Assembly (NCBI RefSeq): GCF_014204895.1
Contig: NZ_JACHMF010000001.1
Span: 7,874,001-7,938,000 of the forward strand
Reading direction: 5' to 3'
DNA length: 64,000 nucleotides
Origin: Paractinoplanes abujensis
Lineage (GTDB): Bacteria > Actinomycetota > Actinomycetes > Mycobacteriales > Micromonosporaceae
The notes under the pieces were generated by a model that had not been told where the DNA came from, searched no databases, and saw only the letters and a list, made by a program, of their open reading frames with translations. Positions 8,711 through 19,910 of this stretch are shown here, piece by piece. Made by a program: the position numbers and the translations under genes. Position 1 is the first letter of the stretch. Each line of letters opens with the position of its first letter.

Positions 8711-9178
8711 TCAGGCAGGCTCCACCAACTCCACCAGAACGCCCCCGGCATCCTTCGGGTGCACGAAGTTGATCCGCGACCCGGCCGTGCCGCGGCGCGG
8801 GGTGTCGTAGAGCAGACGCAGCCCCCGTGCCCGCAGCGCCGCTGACGTGGCCTCGACATCGGCCACTGTGTAGGCCAGCTGCTGCAGCCCGGGGCCGCTG
8901 CGGTCCAGGAACTTGGCGATTGCCGAGTCGGGCCGGGCCGGGGCCAGCAACTGGAGGCGGGGACCGGCGCCGTCACCGACCGCGAGCATCGCTTCCCGTA
9001 CGCCTTGCTCCTCGTTCGTCTCCTCGTGCACGCACCGCATGCCGAAGGTCTCGGCGTAGAAGCGCACCGCCTCGTCAAGATCGGGAACGGCGATCCCCAC
9101 GTGATCGATCCGCAGAGGCGCGACCTCGCCGAATGTGACATTCTCAGACTCGGCGGCGCTAGGTGAAGGCTGGGTCAT
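8711..9178 (-). CDS. mce: Methylmalonyl-CoA epimerase
   Basis: A 155-residue VOC/glyoxalase-fold protein that interconverts (2R)- and (2S)-methylmalonyl-CoA. Metal-site candidates are His26 (RIDHVGIAV), Gln76 (RLQLLAP) and Glu150 (VELVEP). The position usually occupied by a second His (HHIA) reads QQLA at 99-102. The ATG at 9178 is chosen because the family motif starts just after it; longer in-frame starts would add an unconserved leader. It is divergent from the thiolase, sharing a 92-bp promoter region that holds a near-perfect palindrome, and lies near MeaB and isobutyryl-CoA mutase, all in propionyl/butyryl-CoA metabolism. Confidence 0.88.
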   Translation of the reverse strand: MTQPSPSAAESENVTFGEVAPLRIDHVGIAVPDLDEAVRFYAETFGMRCVHEETNEEQGVREAMLAVGDGAGPRLQLLAPARPDSAIAKFLDRSGPGLQQLAYTVADVEATSAALRARGLRLLYDTPRRGTAGSRINFVHPKDAGGVLVELVEPA

Positions 9179-9189
9179 CCTATTAGTCT

Positions 9190-9211
9190 GGCCTAAACGG
9201 CCGTTAAGGCC
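9190..9211. promoter_or_regulatory. 22-bp near-perfect palindromic operator in the mce/thiolase divergent promoter
   Basis: Arms GGCCTAAACGG (9190-9200) and CCGTTAAGGCC (9201-9211) are reverse complements with a single mismatch. The core fits CCTnAnCGnnCGTTnAGG, which recurs upstream of icmA at 14025-14042. Size and symmetry suit a TetR-family dimer site. The inner TaAA-N6-TTAA resembles, from memory, the GTTAA-N6-TTAAC box of AccR, the short-chain acyl-CoA repressor of Streptomyces avermitilis. It would control both divergent genes. Confidence 0.65.
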
Positions 9212-9269
9212 AACCGGGAGTCCCCCCTCAAGATTCCCCTGAGTCCGCCCGGCAGATCGGAATCCAACC

Positions 9270-10454
9270 GTGACCAGCTCGGTGATCGTGAGCGGCGCCC
9301 GTACCCCGATGGGCCGCCTGCTCGGCAACCTCAAGAACGTGCCGGCCACGACGCTCGGCGGCTATGCCATCGAGGCCGCTCTCGCGCGCGGCGGCGTCCG
9401 CCCCGACCAGGTGCAATACGTCATCATGGGCCAGGTCCTGCAGGCCGGCGCCGGGCAGATCACGGCGCGGCAGGCCGCGGTGGCCGCCGGCATCCCGATG
9501 AGCACCCCGGCCCTGACCGTCAATAAGGTGTGCCTCTCCGGGCTCGACGCGATCGCGCTGGCCGACCAGCTCATCCGCTGCGGCGAGTTCGACGTGGTCG
9601 TGGCGGGCGGCATGGAGTCGATGACCAACGCGCCGCACCTGCTGATGACCCAGCGCCAAGGCGTCAAGTTCGGCGACGTGCTGGTGCGCGACCACACGGC
9701 GTACGACGGGCTGATCGACCCGTGGGACGGCACCTCGATGGGGGAGTCCACCGAGCGCAGCGGCGTGCACCTGGGCATCACCCGGGCCGAGCAGGACGCG
9801 TTCGCGGCCCAGAGCCACCGGCGGGCCGCCGCCGCGCAGCGTGAGGGCCGGTTCGCCGAGGAGATCGTGCCGATCAAGTCGGGCCAGCGCGAGGAGGACC
9901 CGGTCGTCGACGTCGACGAGGGCGTCCGGCCCGACGCCACGGCCGAGTCGCTGTCCAAGCTGCGCCCCGCGTTCACCCCCGGCGGCACGATCACCGCGGG
10001 CAGCTCGTCGCCCATCTCGGACGGTGCGGCCGCGGTCGTGGTGATGAACAAGGCCAAGGCCGAGGCGCTCGGGCTGCGCTGGCTGGCCGAGATCACCGCG
10101 CACGGCAACGTGGCCGGCCCCGACAACTCGCTGCAGTCGCAGCCGGCCAACGCCATCAAACACGCGCTCGACAAGGCCGGGCTGACCGTCGACGACCTCG
10201 ACCTGATCGAGATGAACGAGGCGTTCGCCCAGGTGGTGCTGCAGTCGATGCGCGAGCTCAAGGTCGACGAGGAGATGGTGAACGTCAACGGGGGCGCCAT
10301 CGCGCTGGGCCACCCGATCGGCATGTCGGGCGCCCGGCTGGTGCTGACGCTGGCCCTCGAGCTGCGGCGCCGCGGCGGGCTGTACGGCGCGGCCGGGCTC
10401 TGCGGCGGCGGCGGTCAGGGCGACGCGCTGATCATCAAGAGTGCCGGGGCGTGA
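9270..10454 (+). CDS. Acetyl-CoA C-acyltransferase (thiolase)
   Basis: A 394-residue thiolase of standard length, condensing or cleaving acyl-CoA and acetyl-CoA. The acylated Cys lies in VNKVCLSG (C88), the conserved His in GHPIGMSG (H348) and the second Cys in LCGGGGQG (C378). The start is GTG. Its stop overlaps the meaB start (GTGA), indicating an operon. The context suggests a biosynthetic-type acetoacetyl-CoA thiolase feeding short-chain acyl-CoA pools, though degradative use cannot be excluded. Confidence 0.92.
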
Positions 10455-11404
10455 ACCGGCGGCACGACGTGCCCGCGCTGGTGGCCAAAGCGCGAGACGG
10501 TGACGTGCGGTCGGTGGCCCGGCTGATCAGCCTGGTCGAGAACGGCGACCCCGCGCTGCCCGAGGTGGCTGCGGCCCTCGCCCCGTACGCGGGAAGGGCG
10601 CAAGTGGTCGGCCTGACCGGTTCACCCGGCGTCGGCAAGTCGACGACCACCAACGAGCTCGTGCGATCGCTGCGCGCCCGGGGCCGGCGGGTCGGCGTGC
10701 TCGCGGTCGACCCGTCCAGTCCGTTCAGCGGCGGCGCGATCCTGGGCGACCGGATCCGCATGCAGGACCACACCACCGACCCGGGCGTCTACATCCGGTC
10801 CATGTCGAGCCGCGGGCAGCTGGGCGGGCTCGCGGCGGCCACGCCGCAGGCCGTACGGGTGCTGGAAGGGGCCGGCTGCGACGTGATCCTGGTCGAGACC
10901 GTCGGCGTCGGACAGGCCGAGGTCGAGATCGCCTCGCTCGCCGACACGACGCTGGTGCTGCTCGCGCCGGGCATGGGCGACGCGATCCAGGCGGTCAAGG
11001 CGGGTGTGCTCGAAGTGGCCGACGTCTTCGTGATCAACAAGGCCGACCGTCCCGGCGCCGACGCCACCTACCGCGACATCCAGGGCATGCTCGGGCTGGG
11101 GGAGCGGGCCCCCGGCGACTGGCGGCCGCTGGTCGTGCGGGCCACCGCGGTCAAGGCCGAGGGCATCGACGACATCACGGGCGCGATCGACAAGCACCAC
11201 GACTGGCTCGAACGGACCGGCGCCCTGGTCACCCGCCGCGAGCGCCGGGCCGCGGTCGAGATCGAGGCGATCGCGCTCGGCGTGCTGCGGGCCCGCATCG
11301 GTGACCTGCGGCAGGGGACGGCGCTGGGCGCGCTCGCGGCCGCGGTCGCGTCCGGGGAGGCCGACCCTTATGCGGCCGCCGACGAGCTGATCAAAGGCCT
11401 CTAA
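10451..11404 (+). CDS. meaB: MeaB/ArgK family GTPase chaperone of B12-dependent acyl-CoA mutase
   Basis: A 317-residue G3E-family GTPase that protects and reloads adenosylcobalamin mutases. P-loop GSPGVGKST is at 57-65. Also visible are the Walker-B-like switch residues [10 protein letters not shown] and the NKAD guanine-specificity motif (VINKADR). It starts at a GTG inside the thiolase stop. The likely client is the isobutyryl-CoA mutase encoded at 14064, or a methylmalonyl-CoA mutase outside the window. Its last four bases overlap the convergent PadR gene. Confidence 0.92.
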
Positions 11405-11994
11405 CCGAACTCCTGCAGCGTGTCCTGGATCAGTTGCAGATCCCAGGCCAGCGTGCCGTCACTCAGATCGGCCACGACCCCGCGCAGCCAGGCGATCTCG
11501 GCCGTGAGCAGGGCCGCACGGTATTCGTCCTCGATCAGGAAGAGCCGGGGCAGGCCCGGTGGCGCGGCCGCGCGGATGGCGGCGACCTTCGCCTCCAGCG
11601 TCTCGACGCGCTGCGCGAGCAGATCCCGTACGTGGTGGGGTTCCAGCACGGCGATGAAGGCGAGCGCGGCCGGGAACTCGGGGAACTCGCGGGCCGGGGC
11701 CGGCAGCGCGTCGGCCAGCCAGCGCCGCATCGTGGCCGCGCCCTCGTCGGTGATCTCGTAGACCGTGCGCTCGGGGCGACCGGCCTCGCGCGCGGTGCCG
11801 GCCGGGCGGGCCAGGCCGTCCCTGACGAGCCGGTCCAGCGCCTGGTAGACGCTGTTGCGCTGGGCCACGTTGACCAGCTGGTCCTGGCCTCTCTCTTTGA
11901 TCATCTGCTGCATCCGGTACGGGTGCATGGGCGCCTCGGTGAGCAGCGCCAGCAGCAGCATGCCGAGCGTCGATCGGCGCGGTTCGGTGGCCAC
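11401..11994 (-). CDS. PadR family transcriptional regulator
   Basis: A 197-residue protein with the PadR winged-helix domain at the N-terminus (LLALLTEAPMHPYRM; YQALDRLVRDGLA; VYEITDEGAATM) and a C-terminal Vir/PadR-C helical dimerisation region. It is divergent from a flavin monooxygenase across 53 bp containing a perfect inverted repeat. The simplest reading is that it represses itself and the monooxygenase and is released by the enzyme's substrate or a related phenolic or drug. Confidence 0.88.
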   Translation of the reverse strand: MATEPRRSTLGMLLLALLTEAPMHPYRMQQMIKERGQDQLVNVAQRNSVYQALDRLVRDGLARPAGTAREAGRPERTVYEITDEGAATMRRWLADALPAPAREFPEFPAALAFIAVLEPHHVRDLLAQRVETLEAKVAAIRAAAPPGLPRLFLIEDEYRAALLTAEIAWLRGVVADLSDGTLAWDLQLIQDTLQEFG

Positions 11995-12037
11995 CGATCA
12001 AGCCTAGAGGGTTGACGCGTAGTAGTCATGAGATGGA

Positions 12038-12054
12038 TAGTCATTTTATGACTA
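12038..12054. promoter_or_regulatory. PadR-type operator overlapping the monooxygenase start codon
   Basis: A perfect inverted repeat TAGTCAT-N3-ATGACTA whose right arm begins with the ATG (12048) of the monooxygenase. An extra direct copy of TAGTCAT lies at 12023-12029. Three half-sites between divergent padR-like and monooxygenase genes strongly suggest the PadR binding region, although the classical PadR box (ATGT-N8-ACAT) differs. Confidence 0.65.
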
Positions 12055-13229
12055 ACCCAGTTGCCCTGATCGCCGGCGGGGGCATCGCCGGCACCGTCGC
12101 CGCGCTCGCCCTGCACCGGGCCGGCTGGGCGCCCCGCGTCTTCGAGGCCCGCGCCGCGGACGCCGACGAGCGGGGCGCGTTCCTGACCGTGGCCGTCAAC
12201 GGCCTGACCGCCCTGCGGGCCCTCGACCTCGACCCGTCCGCGGTGCTCGCCGCGGGCTTCCCGACCCCCGCGCTGACCATGACCAACGGCGCCGGCCGCC
12301 ACCTCGGCGTGCTCCCGCTCGGTGGCCCCGCGCCCGACGGCACGACCACCACCACGATCCGGCGGGCCGACCTCTACGCGGCGCTGCGCGCGGCGGCGCA
12401 AGCGCGGGGCATTCCCCTCTCGTACGGCAAAGCTCTGCGCGACTTCACCGAAGGGCCGGGCGGGGTGAGCGTCACGCTGGCCGACGGCTCCACCGCGCAA
12501 GGTTCGCTGCTGGTGGGGGCGGACGGCATTCGATCCCGGACGCGGGAACTGCTCGACCCCGACGGCCCGGCCCCGGACTACCTGGGGCTGCTCAACGCGG
12601 GCGGGTTCACGTCCGGCCCCGTCGACGGGGTCACCCCGGAGCCGGGCATGGTCTACATGGCCTTCGGGCGGCGGGCCTTCTTCGGCTGGACCGCCGCGCC
12701 GGACGGCTCGGTGTGGTGGTTCGCCAACCCGCCCAGCAAGCAGCCGGTGCGGCCCGGGGACTTCACGTCCGCGTCGTGGCGGGACCACCTGCTGGGGCTG
12801 TTCGCCGACGACGCCTTCCCGGCCGCGGCGATCATCCGGGCCACGCCCGACGTGCTGGGGCCGTGGAACACCGACGACCTTCCCCGCGTACGGGTGTGGC
12901 ACTCCCGTCGAGCCGTCCTGATCGGCGACGCGGCGCACGCGGTCGCGCCCTCGTCCGGGCAGGGCGCGTCGATGGCCTTCGAGGACGCGGTCACGCTGGG
13001 GCTGTGCCTGCCGGCCGGCTCGTCAGTCGCCGAGGGGCTGGCCGACTACGAGCAACGCCGCCGGCGCCGGGTCGAGCGCGTGGTGGCCGTCGGGCGGCGC
13101 AACGGCAGCGGTAAGACCGCCGGGCCGGTCGGCGCGGCGATTCGGGACGCCATGTTCCCACTCGTCATGAAGATCCTCTATCGCCGCGGCAACCCGCAGG
13201 CGTGGATCCTCGACCACCGGGTGGCTTGA
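12048..13229 (+). CDS. FAD-dependent aromatic-type monooxygenase
   Basis: A 393-residue single-component flavoprotein monooxygenase. The N-terminal dinucleotide-binding motif GGGIAG (about 9-14) is followed by an acidic strand end (VFEARA), then a substrate region, then the second FAD motif IGDAAHAVAPSSGQG. Family members hydroxylate aromatic substrates or inactivate drugs such as tetracycline or rifampicin using NAD(P)H and O2. The ATG at 12048 is preferred; upstream codons lie in the operator. Divergent PadR control suggests a xenobiotic- or phenolic-inducible enzyme. Confidence 0.88.
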   Translation: MTNPVALIAGGGIAGTVAALALHRAGWAPRVFEARAADADERGAFLTVAVNGLTALRALDLDPSAVLAAGFPTPALTMTNGAGRHLGVLPLGGPAPDGTTTTTIRRADLYAALRAAAQARGIPLSYGKALRDFTEGPGGVSVTLADGSTAQGSLLVGADGIRSRTRELLDPDGPAPDYLGLLNAGGFTSGPVDGVTPEPGMVYMAFGRRAFFGWTAAPDGSVWWFANPPSKQPVRPGDFTSASWRDHLLGLFADDAFPAAAIIRATPDVLGPWNTDDLPRVRVWHSRRAVLIGDAAHAVAPSSGQGASMAFEDAVTLGLCLPAGSSVAEGLADYEQRRRRRVERVVAVGRRNGSGKTAGPVGAAIRDAMFPLVMKILYRRGNPQAWILDHRVA

Positions 13230-13352
13230 GAGTTTTTCGGTCACTTTCCGTGAGCATTCGGGTGACGCGCCTACCCTCGTTGACCCGATCGGCAACCCTC
13301 TCGCAACGCCCTAAGCTGGGACTACGCCATCGTCATGAGAGGAGGGGACGTC

Positions 13353-13826
13353 ATGGTCAACCCGGTTACGTTCCCCCAGGCGGCCGGCACCACGGCCACC
13401 TATCTTCACCCTCTGTTGCAGTCGGCGGCGCTGCAGTCGACAGTCCTCGCGGCCGCGGCCAAGCCTTCCGAGGCCGCCCCGAACGTGACGCAGGTGCGCC
13501 AGCCCGCCGTGCCCGCGGTGACTGCCGTGCAGCCGACCGCCGCCTACGCCGAGAACCTCGCCCGCGATGCGGCCACCGCGGTCCGCACGGCCACCGTCAC
13601 CGCCAAGACCACCCGCCGCCTCGAGCAGACCGCCGAGGACGACGCGTTCGCCGAACTGGCCCGCCAGGCCTCCCTCGACCGCGCCTCGTCGCAGGTGGGC
13701 ATGCTGCTGACCCGGGCCGCGGCCGAGCGGCGGGTCGCCGTCACCTCGGGTCTGCCGGCGGCACGGCTGGCTCAGCTCGACACCACCACGTCGCGGCTCT
13801 ACCACGCGCTGGACGTCCTGGTCTGA
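13353..13826 (+). CDS. Unrecognised Ala/Thr-rich protein, 157 residues
   Basis: I do not recognise the family. The ATG at 13353 has a strong AGGAGGGG site about six bases upstream. Codon usage is like its neighbours. There is no signal peptide, membrane helix or cysteine. The N-terminal half is Pro/Ala/Thr-rich (AVPAVTAVQPTAAYAE); residues from about 70 onward are predicted-looking helices rich in Ala, Arg, Glu and Thr (TAVRTATVTAKTTRRLEQ; LARQASLDRASSQVGMLL), suggestive of a helical bundle. It is monocistronic, followed by a strong terminator. Confidence 0.65.
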   Translation: MVNPVTFPQAAGTTATYLHPLLQSAALQSTVLAAAAKPSEAAPNVTQVRQPAVPAVTAVQPTAAYAENLARDAATAVRTATVTAKTTRRLEQTAEDDAFAELARQASLDRASSQVGMLLTRAAAERRVAVTSGLPAARLAQLDTTTSRLYHALDVLV

Positions 13827-13842
13827 GATCCACCCGAAGCGC

Positions 13843-13882
13843 GCGACGCCCACACCTTGTCCTGTCACGGTGTGGGCGTCGC
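13843..13882 (+). terminator. Strong GC-rich terminator hairpin after the 157-residue gene
   Basis: A perfect 14-bp stem: left arm GCGACGCCCACACC (13843-13856), 12-base loop, right arm GGTGTGGGCGTCGC (13869-13882). It lies 17 bases after the stop and insulates icmA from upstream transcription. A pyrimidine-rich stretch follows but there is no long U-run. Confidence 0.8.
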
Positions 13883-14024
13883 CGTGTCTTCGACACCGGA
13901 ACCACCCACCACGGCCGGAGCCCGCGCAACGGCCCGGACCACCCACTGGCTCGCGAGGCGGGCCCCGGACGGCCCTGGTGCTTCTGTGGGCGGCCAGGAC
14001 GCGTACGGGATCAGTCTCTTTTGA

Positions 14025-14042
14025 CCTTAGCGATCGTTCAGG
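14025..14042. promoter_or_regulatory. Second copy of the acyl-CoA-gene palindrome, upstream of icmA
   Basis: The sequence CCTTAGCGATCGTTCAGG is palindromic with two mismatches. It agrees with the mce/thiolase site CCTAAACGGCCGTTAAGG at every position of CCTnAnCGnnCGTTnAGG. It ends 21 bases before the preferred icmA ATG, as expected for a repressor site overlapping the promoter or transcript start. Shared use at two loci of the same pathway is the main support. Confidence 0.62.
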
Positions 14043-14063
14043 AATAGCCCTAGGATGACATCC

Positions 14064-15737
14064 ATGGATGCTGCCGACATCGCCGCGGGGCGGGAGCGCT
14101 GGCAGCGGCGCTACGACGCCGCGCGCAAGCGGGACGCTGACTTCACGACGCTCTCCGGCGCCACGGTCGAGCCGGTCTACGGGCCACCGCCGGAGGCGGG
14201 CTATCCGGGGTTCGAGCGCATCGGCTGGCCGGGCGAGTTCCCCTACACGCGGGGGCTCTACCCGACGGGCTATCGCGGGCGCACCTGGACGATCCGGCAG
14301 TTCGCCGGGTTCGGTAACGCGCGCCAGACCAACGAGCGCTACAAGATGATCCTGGCCGCCGGCGGCGGTGGGCTCAGCGTCGCGTTCGACATGCCGACGC
14401 TGATGGGCCGCGACTCCGACGATCAGCAGTCGGCGGGCGAGGTCGGCCACTGCGGCGTCGCGATCGACTCCGCGGCCGACATGGACGTGCTCTTCGACGG
14501 CATCGACCTCGAGCAGACCACGACCAGCATGACGATCTCGGGCCCGGCCGTGCCGATCTTCTGCATGTATCTGGTGGCCGCCGAACGGCAAGGCGCCGAC
14601 CTGCACAAGCTCGACGGCACGCTGCAGACCGACATCTTCAAGGAATACATCGCGCAGAAGGAATGGCTCTTCCAGCCCGAGCCGCACCTGCGTTTGATCG
14701 GCGACCTCATGGAGTACTGCGCGGCCGAGATCCCGCGCTACAAGCCGTTGTCGGTCAGCGGCTATCACATCCGCGAGGCCGGCTCGACGGCCGCCCAGGA
14801 ACTGGCGTACACGCTGGCCGACGGCTTCGGCTACGTCGAGCTGGGACTCAGCCGGGGGCTCGACGTCAACCAGTTCGCGCCCGGGCTCAGCTTCTTCTTC
14901 GACGCGCACATCGACTTCTTCGAGGAGATCGCCAAGTTCCGGGCCGCGCGGCGCATCTGGGCCCGCCACCTGCGCGACGACTACGGCGCCACCAGTGAGA
15001 AGGCGTTGTGGCTGAAGTTCCACACGCAGACGGCCGGCGTCTCGCTCACCGCCCAGCAGCCGGTCAACAACGTCGTCCGTACGGCGGTGGAGGCGCTCGC
15101 GGCCGTGCTGGGCGGGACGAACTCGCTGCACACCAACGCGCTCGACGAGACGCTGGCCCTGCCCACCGACGAGTCGGCCGAGATCGCCCTGCGCACCCAG
15201 CAGGTGATCATGGAGGAGACCGGCGTGGTCAACGTGGCCGACCCGCTCGGCGGCTCGTGGTATCTGGAGGAGCTGACCGACCGCATCGAGGCCGAGGCCG
15301 AAGAGATCTTCGCGCGCATCCGCGAACTGGGCGAGGACGGCAGCATCACCGCCGGCATCCTGCGCGGCATCGAGGACGGCTGGTTCACGGCCCACATCGC
15401 CGACTCGGCCTTCGTCTATCAGCAGGCCGTCGAGAAGGGCGACAAGCGGACCGTCGGCGTCAACGTGCACACCGCCACGGTGGCCAAGGAGCTCGAGATC
15501 CTGCGGGTCTCGCACGAGGTCGAGCTCGAGCAGAACCGGGCGCTCGGTTCCCGCCGGTCGGAGCGAGATCCCGTACGGGTCAAGGCCGCGCTCGACCGGA
15601 TGGTGGAGGTGACCCGCACGGGCGACAACATGATCCCGGCCATGCTGGAGGCCGCGCGGGCCGAGGCGACCCTGGGCGAGATCTGCGGGGTGCTCAAGGA
15701 CGAGTGGGGCATCTATCGGGAACCGGCGCGGTTCTAG
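14064..15737 (+). CDS. icmA: Isobutyryl-CoA mutase large subunit (B12-dependent acyl-CoA mutase family)
   Basis: A 557-residue catalytic subunit of the methylmalonyl-CoA mutase superfamily, interconverting isobutyryl-CoA and n-butyryl-CoA with a separate B12-binding small subunit. With the start at ATG 14064 the two substrate-specificity positions are Phe80 (IRQFAGFG) and Gln198 (YIAQKEWL). From memory, these are the IcmA residues and numbering, where methylmalonyl-CoA mutases have Tyr89 and Arg207. There is no B12-binding domain, as expected for the large subunit. The small subunit gene is not in the window. An ATG three codons upstream (14055) is possible. MeaB at 10451 is a likely partner, and a shared palindrome lies upstream. 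Confidence 0.88.
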   Translation: MDAADIAAGRERWQRRYDAARKRDADFTTLSGATVEPVYGPPPEAGYPGFERIGWPGEFPYTRGLYPTGYRGRTWTIRQFAGFGNARQTNERYKMILAAGGGGLSVAFDMPTLMGRDSDDQQSAGEVGHCGVAIDSAADMDVLFDGIDLEQTTTSMTISGPAVPIFCMYLVAAERQGADLHKLDGTLQTDIFKEYIAQKEWLFQPEPHLRLIGDLMEYCAAEIPRYKPLSVSGYHIREAGSTAAQELAYTLADGFGYVELGLSRGLDVNQFAPGLSFFFDAHIDFFEEIAKFRAARRIWARHLRDDYGATSEKALWLKFHTQTAGVSLTAQQPVNNVVRTAVEALAAVLGGTNSLHTNALDETLALPTDESAEIALRTQQVIMEETGVVNVADPLGGSWYLEELTDRIEAEAEEIFARIRELGEDGSITAGILRGIEDGWFTAHIADSAFVYQQAVEKGDKRTVGVNVHTATVAKELEILRVSHEVELEQNRALGSRRSERDPVRVKAALDRMVEVTRTGDNMIPAMLEAARAEATLGEICGVLKDEWGIYREPARF

Positions 15738-16865: not shown

Positions 16866-19800
16866 GTGCGCCGCATCGCCGTCCTTGACGCACCGTCCAA
16901 TCTCGGTCTGCGCCCGCCGACCGCGACGTCGGTGCCGGGCTGCGCCAAGGCGCCCGGAGCTCTCCGTGACCACGGGCTGATCAGCAAACTCGACGCCCGC
17001 GACGCCGGCTGCCTGACCCCGCCCCGCTACGACGCGGGCGACTGGCGGCCGGGCGACGGCGTGGCCCACGCGGCCCAGATCGCGGCCTACTCGCGGGCGC
17101 TGGCCGACCGGATCGGCGGCATCCTCGACGCCGGCGAGTTCCCGGTCGTCCTCGGCGGCGACTGCTCGATCCTGCTCGGCTCCGGCCTGGCCATGAACCG
17201 GCTCGGCGACTCCGTCGGCGGGCGCATCGGCCTGGTCTTCGTGGACGGGCACTCCGACTTCCGGCACCCCGGCAACGCCTCCTACGTAGGGGCCGCCGCC
17301 GGCGAGGACCTCGCGCTGGTCACCGGCCGCGGCCAGGCCGACCTGGCCGCGATCGAAGGGCGCCGGCCCTACTTCCGCGACGTCGACGTGGTCGTGATGG
17401 GCATCCGCGCCCAAGACGAATACCGCCTCGACCTGCAGGCGGCCGGCATCGTGACCCGCCCCGTGACCGCCCTGCGGGCCGAAGGCGCCGCCCGCAGCGC
17501 CCAATGGGCCCGCGACCAACTGGTCGACTGCGCGGGCTACTGGGTCCACATGGATGTCGACGTGCTCGACCCCGCCGTGATGCCGGCCGTCGACGCGCCG
17601 TCGCCCGGGGGGATCGCCTTCCCCGAGCTCGAAATCCTGCTGGCCGGGCTGGTGGAGTCGCCGCACTGCCTCGGCGTGGAGATCACGGTCTTCGACCCCG
17701 ACTACGACCCCGACGGCTCGTACGCGGCCGAGATCGTCAGCGCCATCACGGCCGGCCTGGCCAACGCCCACACCGTGACCCCGCGCCCCGACCTGATCGC
17801 GGCCCGGGCCGACCTGAACGAACCCGCCGTCGCCCAGCCCTCGGCGCCGGACACCGAAGGACCGGGCCGGCTGGGGCCGTCGGCGCCGCGCTTCAACCGG
17901 GCCGAGTCGCTGCTCGCCGGCTTGGACCGCGCCGGCAGCGGCCCCGGCGGCCTCAACCGCGGCGACTCCGACGAACCCGATCGCGAGTCTGGCGGGCTGG
18001 GTCGTGAGCCTGGCGGCCTGGGCCGGGAGCCCGGCGGGCTGGGTCGTGAGTCCGGCTCGAACAGTGAGACCAGCGGTCTTGACCGCGGGCCTGACGCGCT
18101 GGGTCGTGAGCCCGGCGAGACCGGCGGCCTCAACCGCGAGCCTGGCTCGTTGGGTCGTGAGTCTGGCGGCCCCAAGCGAGAGCCTGGCTCGTTCGGTCGT
18201 GAGTCCGGCGGCCTCAACCGCGAGCCCGGCGCGTTCGGTCTTGGACCTGGCGGCGGCCTGGGCCGGGAGCCCGGCGGGCTGGGTCGTGAGTCCGGTGGCC
18301 TCAACCGCGACCTCGGCGGGCTGAACCGCAACATCGACCTGGACGGGCTCACCCGCGGCGAAGCGGGTGCGCCCGGCCGACTCAACCGCGAAGGCGGCGT
18401 GGGACTGAACCGCGGTGACGCCGGCGCGGCCGGGCTCATCCGGCCGCGTTCACCCAATCCGCGGGTGGGCCGGGCCGAGTCGCTCATAGCGGGCCTCAAC
18501 CGGGGTGGGTCCCAGCCGGGTGGTCTGCGGCGTCCGGCCGCGTCGGCGGGCGGGTCCGACGAGGAGCACGAGCGGGAGCAGCGCCGGGCCGCGGCCGCGG
18601 GCGACAGCGTCTCGTTGGCCGCCACCGGGATGTCGCAGGGTGTGTCCGACGAGGTCGCCCTGCCCGCGACGACTCTGCTCGGCGTCGAGGAGGCGGACGA
18701 GGTCGCATCCGAGCACGAGGGTTCGCCCAGCTCCGACGAGGATGCACGCCTGCGCGAGGAAGCGGGCGATGACGTCGAGCCTTTCGGCGGGGGAGACGGC
18801 GACACCGCCGACGCGCCTGACGCGACGATCGCCCGTCCAGACGAGGCCGAGTCCGGTCCCCACGACGGCGATGCCGTAGCCGCCAACCTTGACGCCGCGC
18901 CCGCTGGCCCCGACGCCGTGCCCGCTGGCCCCGACGCCGTGCCCGCTGACTCCGATGCGGTGGCTGCCGCACTTGACGCCGTGCCCGCCGGCTCCGATGC
19001 GGTGGCTGCCGCACCCGGTGCCGTGGCTGGCGCACCCGAGGCCGCGGCCAGCGACTCCGAGGCCGCCGGATCTGACGGCGTGGCTGCTGGACCCGACGCT
19101 GAGGGCGCCGGGTTCGCTGATGGTGTGGGCACGTGGTCAGCTGGCGGCGAAACCGGCGATGCCGCTGCCGCGGACGATGTTGAGGCGGCCGGCTCCGCGG
19201 AGGACGGGGCCCCGGCAGGTGCCGACGAGGCGTATCCCGTGGACCCATGGGCCGACGACACGGACCCAACCGGGGTCGAGCACCTCGAAGAGGGAAACCA
19301 GGCGCATCACGGGGCCTACACCGGCGAGCCGCTCAAAGCCGCGGATCCGGCCGCGGTAGAGCCAGCCGACGCCGCAGTGGTCGACGCGGATCCGGCTGAA
19401 GCAGAGCCGATCGCGATGGAGCCGGCCGAAGCCGAACACATCGTCGCTGAGTCGGCTGACGTCGAGCGGGTCGACGTGGAGTCGGCTGACGCCGAACGAA
19501 TCGACGTGGAGTCGGCTGAGGCCGAGCGGGTCGACGTGGAGTCGGCTGACGCCGAGCTGATCGACGTCGAGGCGGCTGAGGCCGAGCTGATCGGCACTGA
19601 GCGGGCTGACGCCGAGCTGATCGATGTGGAGTCGGCTGAGGTTGAGCTGGTCGACGGCGAGCCGGACGGTTCGGGGCTGCGGGACGACGGTCAGCCGGGG
19701 GCCGACGCCGCGTCAGGCGGGGTGGGGGAAGCGCCCGTGCGGCTGGTGCCGCGGCCGCTCGGGTCGGCGCCCTTGCTGGACTCCGAGCCGTTGCCTGCTA

Positions 19801-19910
19801 CCCGGCCCGGCATGTTGCGGCCCCGGGTCAACGACGAGGAGCCGTTCTCGTTGCCGGCCCAGCGCCCCGCCTTCGACCTCGGGTCGGGTGCGCCGGCCGA
19901 CGTGAACTGA
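16866..19910 (+). CDS. Arginase-family (ureohydrolase-fold) protein with ~700-residue repetitive, probably disordered C-terminal extension
   Basis: 1014 residues. Residues 1-300 form a ureohydrolase domain: GGDCS (C100, where arginases have the metal ligand His), DGHSD (D127, H129, D131) and DVDVLDP region (D230, D232). Arginase-family enzymes release urea or amines from guanidino compounds; the true substrate is unknown. From about 340 the chain is low-complexity: GLNRE/GLGRE-type repeats bracketed by two copies of a 23-residue motif, an acidic Ala/Asp/Glu region with DAVPAGP repeats, and ten decapeptides resembling ESADAERIDV. The end has a conserved-looking LVPRPLGSAPLL. GTG start with GGGAG seven bases upstream; follows the thioredoxin gene. 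Family members normally stop near residue 300. Confidence 0.85.
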   Translation: MRRIAVLDAPSNLGLRPPTATSVPGCAKAPGALRDHGLISKLDARDAGCLTPPRYDAGDWRPGDGVAHAAQIAAYSRALADRIGGILDAGEFPVVLGGDCSILLGSGLAMNRLGDSVGGRIGLVFVDGHSDFRHPGNASYVGAAAGEDLALVTGRGQADLAAIEGRRPYFRDVDVVVMGIRAQDEYRLDLQAAGIVTRPVTALRAEGAARSAQWARDQLVDCAGYWVHMDVDVLDPAVMPAVDAPSPGGIAFPELEILLAGLVESPHCLGVEITVFDPDYDPDGSYAAEIVSAITAGLANAHTVTPRPDLIAARADLNEPAVAQPSAPDTEGPGRLGPSAPRFNRAESLLAGLDRAGSGPGGLNRGDSDEPDRESGGLGREPGGLGREPGGLGRESGSNSETSGLDRGPDALGREPGETGGLNREPGSLGRESGGPKREPGSFGRESGGLNREPGAFGLGPGGGLGREPGGLGRESGGLNRDLGGLNRNIDLDGLTRGEAGAPGRLNREGGVGLNRGDAGAAGLIRPRSPNPRVGRAESLIAGLNRGGSQPGGLRRPAASAGGSDEEHEREQRRAAAAGDSVSLAATGMSQGVSDEVALPATTLLGVEEADEVASEHEGSPSSDEDARLREEAGDDVEPFGGGDGDTADAPDATIARPDEAESGPHDGDAVAANLDAAPAGPDAVPAGPDAVPADSDAVAAALDAVPAGSDAVAAAPGAVAGAPEAAASDSEAAGSDGVAAGPDAEGAGFADGVGTWSAGGETGDAAAADDVEAAGSAEDGAPAGADEAYPVDPWADDTDPTGVEHLEEGNQAHHGAYTGEPLKAADPAAVEPADAAVVDADPAEAEPIAMEPAEAEHIVAESADVERVDVESADAERIDVESAEAERVDVESADAELIDVEAAEAELIGTERADAELIDVESAEVELVDGEPDGSGLRDDGQPGADAASGGVGEAPVRLVPRPLGSAPLLDSEPLPATRPGMLRPRVNDEEPFSLPAQRPAFDLGSGAPADVN
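17892..18533 (+). repeat. GLGRE/GLNRE repeat block bracketed by two copies of a 23-residue motif
   Basis: Inside the arginase-fold gene. A 69-bp motif (pattern xxRAESLxAGLxRxGSxPGG) occurs at 17892-17960 and again at 18465-18533. Between them lie many 18-27-bp units encoding variants of GGLGREPG, GGLNREPG and GSLGRESG. The bracketing suggests an original short module that expanded internally. Confidence 0.85.
19359..19658 (+). repeat. Ten tandem 30-bp repeats encoding acidic decapeptides
   Basis: Ten in-frame 30-base units encoding decapeptides such as ESADVERVDV, ESADAERIDV, ESAEAERVDV and ESADAELIDV, diverging at the first three and last copies. The hydrophobic residue spacing and high acidity would allow a helical or disordered polyanionic rod. 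Confidence 0.88.

Follow-up and report, generated by a model that had tools for sequence, protein, structure and literature searches.

We propose that two palindromic sites in a 64,000-nucleotide stretch of the Paractinoplanes abujensis genome (the window; NCBI RefSeq assembly GCF_014204895.1, contig NZ_JACHMF010000001.1, forward-strand positions 7,874,001 to 7,938,000) are operators of one TetR repressor of the BkaR/AccR family, which also acts on its own gene (tetR), on accB-fadE, on an acyl-coenzyme A (acyl-CoA) dehydrogenase gene and on ilvE. Judged from sequence, this reading has in our view a probability of about 0.85. Computation established where the sites are and how well they are conserved, how the promoter is laid out, which family the regulator belongs to and which motif the sites share. 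The features of the window that bear on the argument are the following:

9192 to 9209, no strand assigned: putative operator 1, core of a 22-bp palindrome (9190 to 9211) in the mce/thiolase divergent promoter region (exact match and mce conservation)
14025 to 14042, plus strand: putative operator 2, icmA promoter (exact match and icmA conservation)
14051 to 14056, plus strand: TAGGAT, likely -10 element of icmA (TANNNT spacing in icmA loci)
8711 to 9178, minus strand: mce, methylmalonyl-CoA epimerase (TIGR03081, 140.6 bits, cut-off 114.95)
9270 to 10454, plus strand: thl, acetyl-CoA acyltransferase (thiolase; TIGR01930, 444.4 bits, cut-off 240.55)
10451 to 11404, plus strand: meaB, mutase-associated GTPase (TIGR00750, 326.9 bits, cut-off 240.75)
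11401 to 11994, minus strand: PadR-like gene
12012 to 13229, plus strand: flavin adenine dinucleotide (FAD) monooxygenase-like gene
14064 to 15737, plus strand: icmA-type acyl-CoA mutase large subunit (TIGR00641, 656.3 bits, cut-off 303.8)

A sequence-only reading of this DNA had seen one operator class, written CCTNANCGNNCGTTNAGG, before genes of short-chain acyl-CoA metabolism, and both sites indeed fit this 18-mer at every specified position. The first is exact on both strands at 9192-9209, one base before the 9193-9210 originally given for it, and 10 of the 11 pairs of the palindrome around it are complementary on direct reading; the second is exact on the plus strand, with one mismatch on the minus strand. 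The genes between them were said to lack the motif, and a pattern scan of the window found no match with up to three mismatches between 9209 and 14025. In the whole genome (9,330,741 bases in one contig) the 18-mer is exact at three places among the matches listed, namely both window sites and 6775635-6775652, and a stricter palindrome, CTNAACGNNCGTTNAG, has three exact places as against none for a reversed-pattern control; the random scatter that would have told against an operator did not occur. The 16-bp core of operator 1 ends 14 bp before the mce ATG, with the thiolase GTG at 60 bp from the operator, and that of operator 2 ends 22 bp before the icmA ATG at 14064, a further in-frame ATG of icmA being present at 14055. 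From the shared mce/thiolase intergenic region, operator 1 might also control thl directly and meaB through the thiolase gene. In alignments, the icmA product has Phe (RQFAGFG) and Gln (EYIAQKEW) in place of the Tyr and Arg of methylmalonyl-CoA mutase, which we take to be the IcmA signature.

The exact site outside the window, at 6775636, lies 32 bp before the start of a tetR gene (6775001-6775603, minus strand) situated 1.1 Mb from the window, which agrees with the earlier suggestion that the regulator is encoded elsewhere; the product of this gene is likely to be the regulator reading both window sites. The protein combines the domains PF00440 and PF17932, and an AlphaFold2 model built from 29 sequences (mean predicted local distance difference test score, pLDDT, 90.2) has the mycobacterial BkaR structure 6yj2 as its top structural match (E 2.4e-12, 45% identity), so that both the TetR helix-turn-helix and the BkaR/AccR fold are present. 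Two further traits of that family are found, namely acyl-CoA carboxylase, 3-hydroxy-3-methylglutaryl-CoA (HMG-CoA) lyase and acyl-CoA dehydrogenase genes as neighbors and a 16-bp palindrome in its own promoter, the latter in all 24 same-genus genomes. Downstream on the same strand follow the biotin carboxylase gene and the HMG-CoA lyase gene (hmgL) and, beyond an open reading frame (ORF) with chaplin domains, accB and the acyl-CoA dehydrogenase gene fadE; identity to the counterparts next to the Streptomyces homologs is no more than about 40-50% for the carboxylase and lyase, and about 72% for fadE. The protein belongs to the BkaR/AccR family and is not AccR in the strict sense: the AccR operator GTTAA-N6-TTAAC was found in exact form at none of 24 same-genus tetR loci and at none of 29 loci from named genomes whose TetR carries His58. 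Its nearest NCBIfam model, the SACE_7040 family (NF050111), scores 227.4 bits, which leaves it outside that family by the 250-bit cut-off.

Two observations concern this locus without bearing on the regulator. The ORF between hmgL and accB, inside the acyl-CoA cluster (L025, 7865-9208, minus strand), has three chaplin-type domains (PF03777). In the tetR promoters L043-L066 a TTGACA or TTGACG is kept between the operator and a TAAAGT-like hexamer, at a distance from the latter unlike that of ordinary promoters; TTGACA was considered as the -35 element of that hexamer, but the roughly 6-bp spacing does not fit.

We then compared the DNA upstream of orthologs across 40 genomes, of which 24 belong to the same genus. 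The tetR site is present in all 24 of the latter (22 exact, two with one mismatch), at a distance of 31-32 bp upstream of the start. The icmA site recurs in 22/22 same-genus genomes having icmA (one, two and three mismatches in 14, 5 and 3 loci) and, with one mismatch each, in 12/12 other Micromonosporaceae, and is lacking in all four icmA loci examined outside the family; these counts leave out L149-L156, from other families, with 4-5 mismatches. Before mce, the site is found in 22 of 24 same-genus genomes (5 exact, 14 with two and 3 with three mismatches) and in 12 of 15 other Micromonosporaceae. Left out of the same-genus mce count are L119 and L122-L126 (other families, no clear site), and out of the second count a further Dactylosporangium copy with five mismatches (L326); L319-L325, outside the family, with 2-5 mismatches (two in Fodinicola, L321), are likewise uncounted. 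A search for accB in 30 genomes recovered it in 16 of 18 same-genus genomes (not in G007 and G016), and all 16 loci have the site with 0-2 mismatches, L253-L256 from other families being uncounted. Loss of the motif before orthologous mce and icmA genes, the other outcome that would have spoken against an operator, was thus not what we saw.

One might still ask whether both matches arose by chance or mark a shared promoter element with no regulator behind it. When three mismatches are allowed, the window holds 20 matches to the 18-mer against 22.16 expected from shuffles, so that loose window matches are meaningless and the exact ones alone stand out. Against such an origin stand the three exact genome matches versus none for the control, the four icmA loci from outside the family, none of which has the motif (4/4), and the conservation of the site while its flanks drift (1.42-1.77 bits of information per site column versus 0.23-0.74 in the 30-bp flanks, a comparison aligned on each best match and hence somewhat favorable to the site); we regard this explanation as practically negligible.

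The geometry of the icmA promoter points to operators of a repressor. In 34/34 icmA loci a TANNNT hexamer lies 8-10 bp beyond the 16-bp site, whereas such a hexamer turned up at 9 of 4080 background positions (120 positions further upstream per locus). As this spacing is fixed despite a start codon 20-61 bp away, the operator appears to keep its position with respect to the promoter, whose -35/spacer region it overlies, as expected of an operator that would block the promoter; a transcript from the hexamer at 14051-14056 could begin at the ATG at 14064. No such fixed hexamer was found at mce. That TetR might bind the sites and yet activate some promoters, such as that of icmA, is conceivable given that AcrT of Streptomyces coelicolor, itself a TetR protein, is described as an activator in the text available to us (PMC8546615). 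However, the icmA site lies over the -35/spacer region, the mce and accB sites adjoin the start, and the passages at hand give repression as the role of both BkaR and AccR, which makes activation very improbable.

A sequence profile was built from 34 sites, four of them from the P. abujensis genome, and scanned over that genome, with 150 of 1567 candidates scored. The icmA, accB, tetR and mce sites ranked first, followed by a leuB-ilvE place outside the training set and a second accB site, then by 7531289, 260339 and 5916637, which we could not place, and by an acyl-CoA dehydrogenase gene. The sites before accB, the acyl-CoA carboxylase beta gene, are paired, with centers 17 bp apart (6769639-6769654, exact and one of the three CTNAACGNNCGTTNAG places, and 6769656-6769671 with one mismatch, among the matches listed). 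The identities of ilvE (TIGR01123, 412.5 bits, cut-off 250.05) and leuB (NF002898, 544.8 bits, cut-off 393) were confirmed, and the ilvE site is kept in 30/30 genomes (24 same-genus and 6 other Micromonosporaceae; one mismatch in 9 and two in 21), and a score as high as its weakest arose from 4 of 2800 shuffles of the upstream regions (from 28 of the 30 loci, L350 and L362 dropped). The site before the second acyl-CoA dehydrogenase gene occurs in at least 11 of 24 same-genus genomes, in differing neighborhoods, a lower bound obtained without an ortholog search. In G018 (L276) and in P. abujensis, the site falls within the longest dehydrogenase ORF, and of the starts only the conserved MTVDR one lies beyond it. 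G027, from another family, has three exact sites, among the matches listed, before genes for an acyl-CoA dehydrogenase, a carboxyltransferase and a B12-binding mutase subunit (TIGR00640, 167.5 bits, cut-off 57.45). The acyl-CoA genes proposed earlier as the regulon accordingly stand, and the set is wider than had been noted, extending to tetR, accB-fadE, the acyl-CoA dehydrogenase gene and ilvE. It reads best as branched-chain amino-acid catabolism with propionyl- and isobutyryl-CoA outlets.

Several other sites were examined and kept out of the regulon: L334 (7531289), L335, L336 and L340, a match inside a called ORF (L033), and one-mismatch sites before genes that read as polyphosphate-kinase-like (L036) and malate-dehydrogenase-like (L037). 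In G003 (L271) a one-mismatch site at 1501 precedes an acetoacetate--CoA ligase gene (TIGR01217, 625.3 bits, cut-off 520.9), a possible regulon member. Separately, a site with a C...G outer pair lies at about 1501 between an XRE-type-like regulator gene and a small membrane-protein gene in G002 (L287, exact), G013 (L285, exact) and G003 (L269, one mismatch).

The identity of the regulator is further suggested by the operators of its relatives. In a TetR-alignment scan of named genomes, of which we considered the best 80 of at least 568 confirmed loci, most loci outside Micromonosporaceae and near kin have a tetR product 45-54% identical to ours, divergent from or within accB-accA-hmgL-fadE, and carry GTTAA-N6-TTAAC or a one-mismatch form in the tetR promoter. 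The Micromonosporaceae sites keep the TTAACGNNCGTTAA core with the outer pair C...G (CTTAACGNNCGTTAAG); the earlier comparison with the AccR box accordingly holds for the TTAA-N6-TTAA core and fails for the outer base pair, which is flipped here. This difference follows residue 58, the end of the predicted helix 53-58: 25 of the 29 His58 loci have a C-type site (0-1 mismatch), whereas the 51 other loci, all Arg58, include 34 with the exact GTTAA box and none with the C-type site. The accB site likewise is present in 20/20 named His58 loci holding accB and in 0/50 Arg-type accB loci. Among the His58 loci, L162, L165, L176 and L184 have no site, and accB was found in none of these four. Residues 52 and 55 were rejected as specificity residues, since L207 and L231 carry T52/A55 with Arg58 yet keep the GTTAA box.

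These data also bear on whether the sites belong to some other acyl-CoA regulator, with tetR as merely one of its targets. A site before a regulator gene is no proof that the same regulator reads it, and the Saccharopolyspora TetR protein AcrT is reported to bind before SACE_7038-7039, whose numbers suggest adjacency to SACE_7040 (PMC8546615, as far as its text was available). On the other hand, the TTAA-N6-TTAA core is the box reported, in the passages seen, for AccR and BkaR, the family of the candidate TetR, the outer operator base varies in step with the recognition helix of the candidate itself, and the AcrT motif given there, nttGaTc, differs; we therefore consider another regulator improbable. 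With a lower level of confidence, at slightly less than even odds, we suggest that the change from Arg58 to His58 went with the flip of the outer pair across the whole regulon, and that the Micromonosporaceae regulon took in icmA, mce/thl-meaB and ilvE, their icmA being without the ACTAGGACGTCCTA-core palindrome of Streptomyces and some other families. The latter is exact in six of 370 loci, all icmA (L149, L150, L152 and L301-L303; three Streptomyces and three from other families), its 18-bp form is absent from the window at up to three mismatches, and a text search of the literature for its core gave no matching subject by title among the matches listed.

Some results weigh against the proposed regulon or its history. 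The mce gene lacks the site in 2/24 same-genus and 3/15 other Micromonosporaceae genomes, and one mce half-site has drifted in most same-genus genomes (2-3 mismatches, 17/22). The E-values of the profile hits in P. abujensis are weak (0.02-1.9), so that rank serves as evidence and significance does not, and the three unexplained places outrank the acyl-CoA dehydrogenase site. Among Micromonospora, Salinispora and Verrucosispora, 9/12 tetR loci have no close match within 260 bp upstream, which means that tetR autoregulation is not family-wide or that the site has moved; L168 and L175 have a close match after tetR (28 of the 80 loci examined). Finally, according to the tree the His58 group arose once (100/100, with a warning of long branches), so its match with the operator class amounts to one correlated change. 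On balance, the sequence-only reading is right in substance, every part of it that was computed being supported.

If the sites are operators of the BkaR/AccR-family TetR, the following mechanism can be envisaged. The ligand-free dimer would sit on CT(T/G)AACGNNCGTT(A/C)AG, covering the -35/spacer region at icmA and lying just before the start codon at mce, and would thereby block transcription; it would act in the same way on its own gene, together with the downstream biotin carboxylase and HMG-CoA lyase genes, and on accB-fadE, the second acyl-CoA dehydrogenase gene and ilvE. Breakdown of branched-chain amino acids would yield a short-chain acyl-CoA that binds the repressor, and the freed regulon would clear isobutyryl-, propionyl- and methylmalonyl-CoA. 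Binding by TetR, repression, the ligand and the control of thl-meaB are what we infer from the arrangement of sites and genes.

Repression of branched-chain and short-chain acyl-CoA genes by BkaR and AccR is already known from the passages available. AccR of Streptomyces avermitilis, whose GTTAA-N6-TTAAC box is quoted in a review (PMC10933834, second-hand and seen in part), resembles our regulator in its TetR family, TTAA-N6-TTAA core, carboxylase-hmgL-fadE neighborhood and short-chain acyl-CoA control. It differs in that here the outer pair is C...G, residue 58 is His rather than Arg, the neighbors are on the same strand rather than divergent, and the AccR targets that this passage lists do not include icmA, mce or ilvE. 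Methylcrotonyl-, propionyl- and acetyl-CoA are reported second-hand as AccR ligands (PMC8546615, in the portion seen). Mycobacterial BkaR (Rv2506/MSMEG_4718), the best structural match, is described in the passages of PMC3920632 as an autoregulated dimeric repressor of the branched-chain keto-acid operon with a 16-bp palindrome; its reported core, GTTA(N)T(N4)A(N)TAAC, has an outer G...C and other inner bases, and its target set there is smaller. The SACE_7040 family, the nearest NCBIfam model, offers a further likeness in that SACE_7038-7039, probably neighbors by number, encode an acyl-CoA carboxylase (PMC8546615, in part); SACE_7040 itself is reported to repress mycelium formation, with no operator given in the passages of PMC3825060. 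PccD and AcrT of Saccharopolyspora erythraea are likewise TetR regulators of acyl-CoA or propionyl-CoA carboxylase genes in the excerpts available, but neither the PccD site, T/ATGACGG/CTGT/CTGT/A (PMC10933834), nor that of AcrT resembles the palindrome here, and PccD was set aside as both window sites, by reading, do not fit its site. According to the part of PMC8176718 available, isobutyryl-CoA mutase is inducible by valine in Streptomyces albus, as are the carboxylase genes whose locus numbers adjoin that of an AccR homolog. A literature search, with most subscription papers outside its reach, found none on the operator class or the regulator in Micromonosporaceae.

Elsewhere in the window, an ORF of 1014 amino acids (16866-19910, plus strand) matches arginase and formimidoylglutamase models below their cut-offs over its first approximately 290 residues.

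Actinoplanes and Micromonospora build natural products from short-chain acyl-CoA units, and precursor supply could be influenced through a single regulator that recognizes a defined DNA word and governs ilvE, acyl-CoA dehydrogenases, carboxylase, epimerase and isobutyryl-CoA mutase. Such a regulator would also hint at acyl-CoA sensing by the SACE_7040 family, which is named after a developmental phenotype. If the history proposed for residue 58 is true, it would represent a traceable rewiring of a whole regulon with a candidate specificity residue. The pairing of residue 58 with the outer operator base makes a specificity switch directly testable with the CTTAACGNNCGTTAAG and GTTAACGNNCGTTAAC words.

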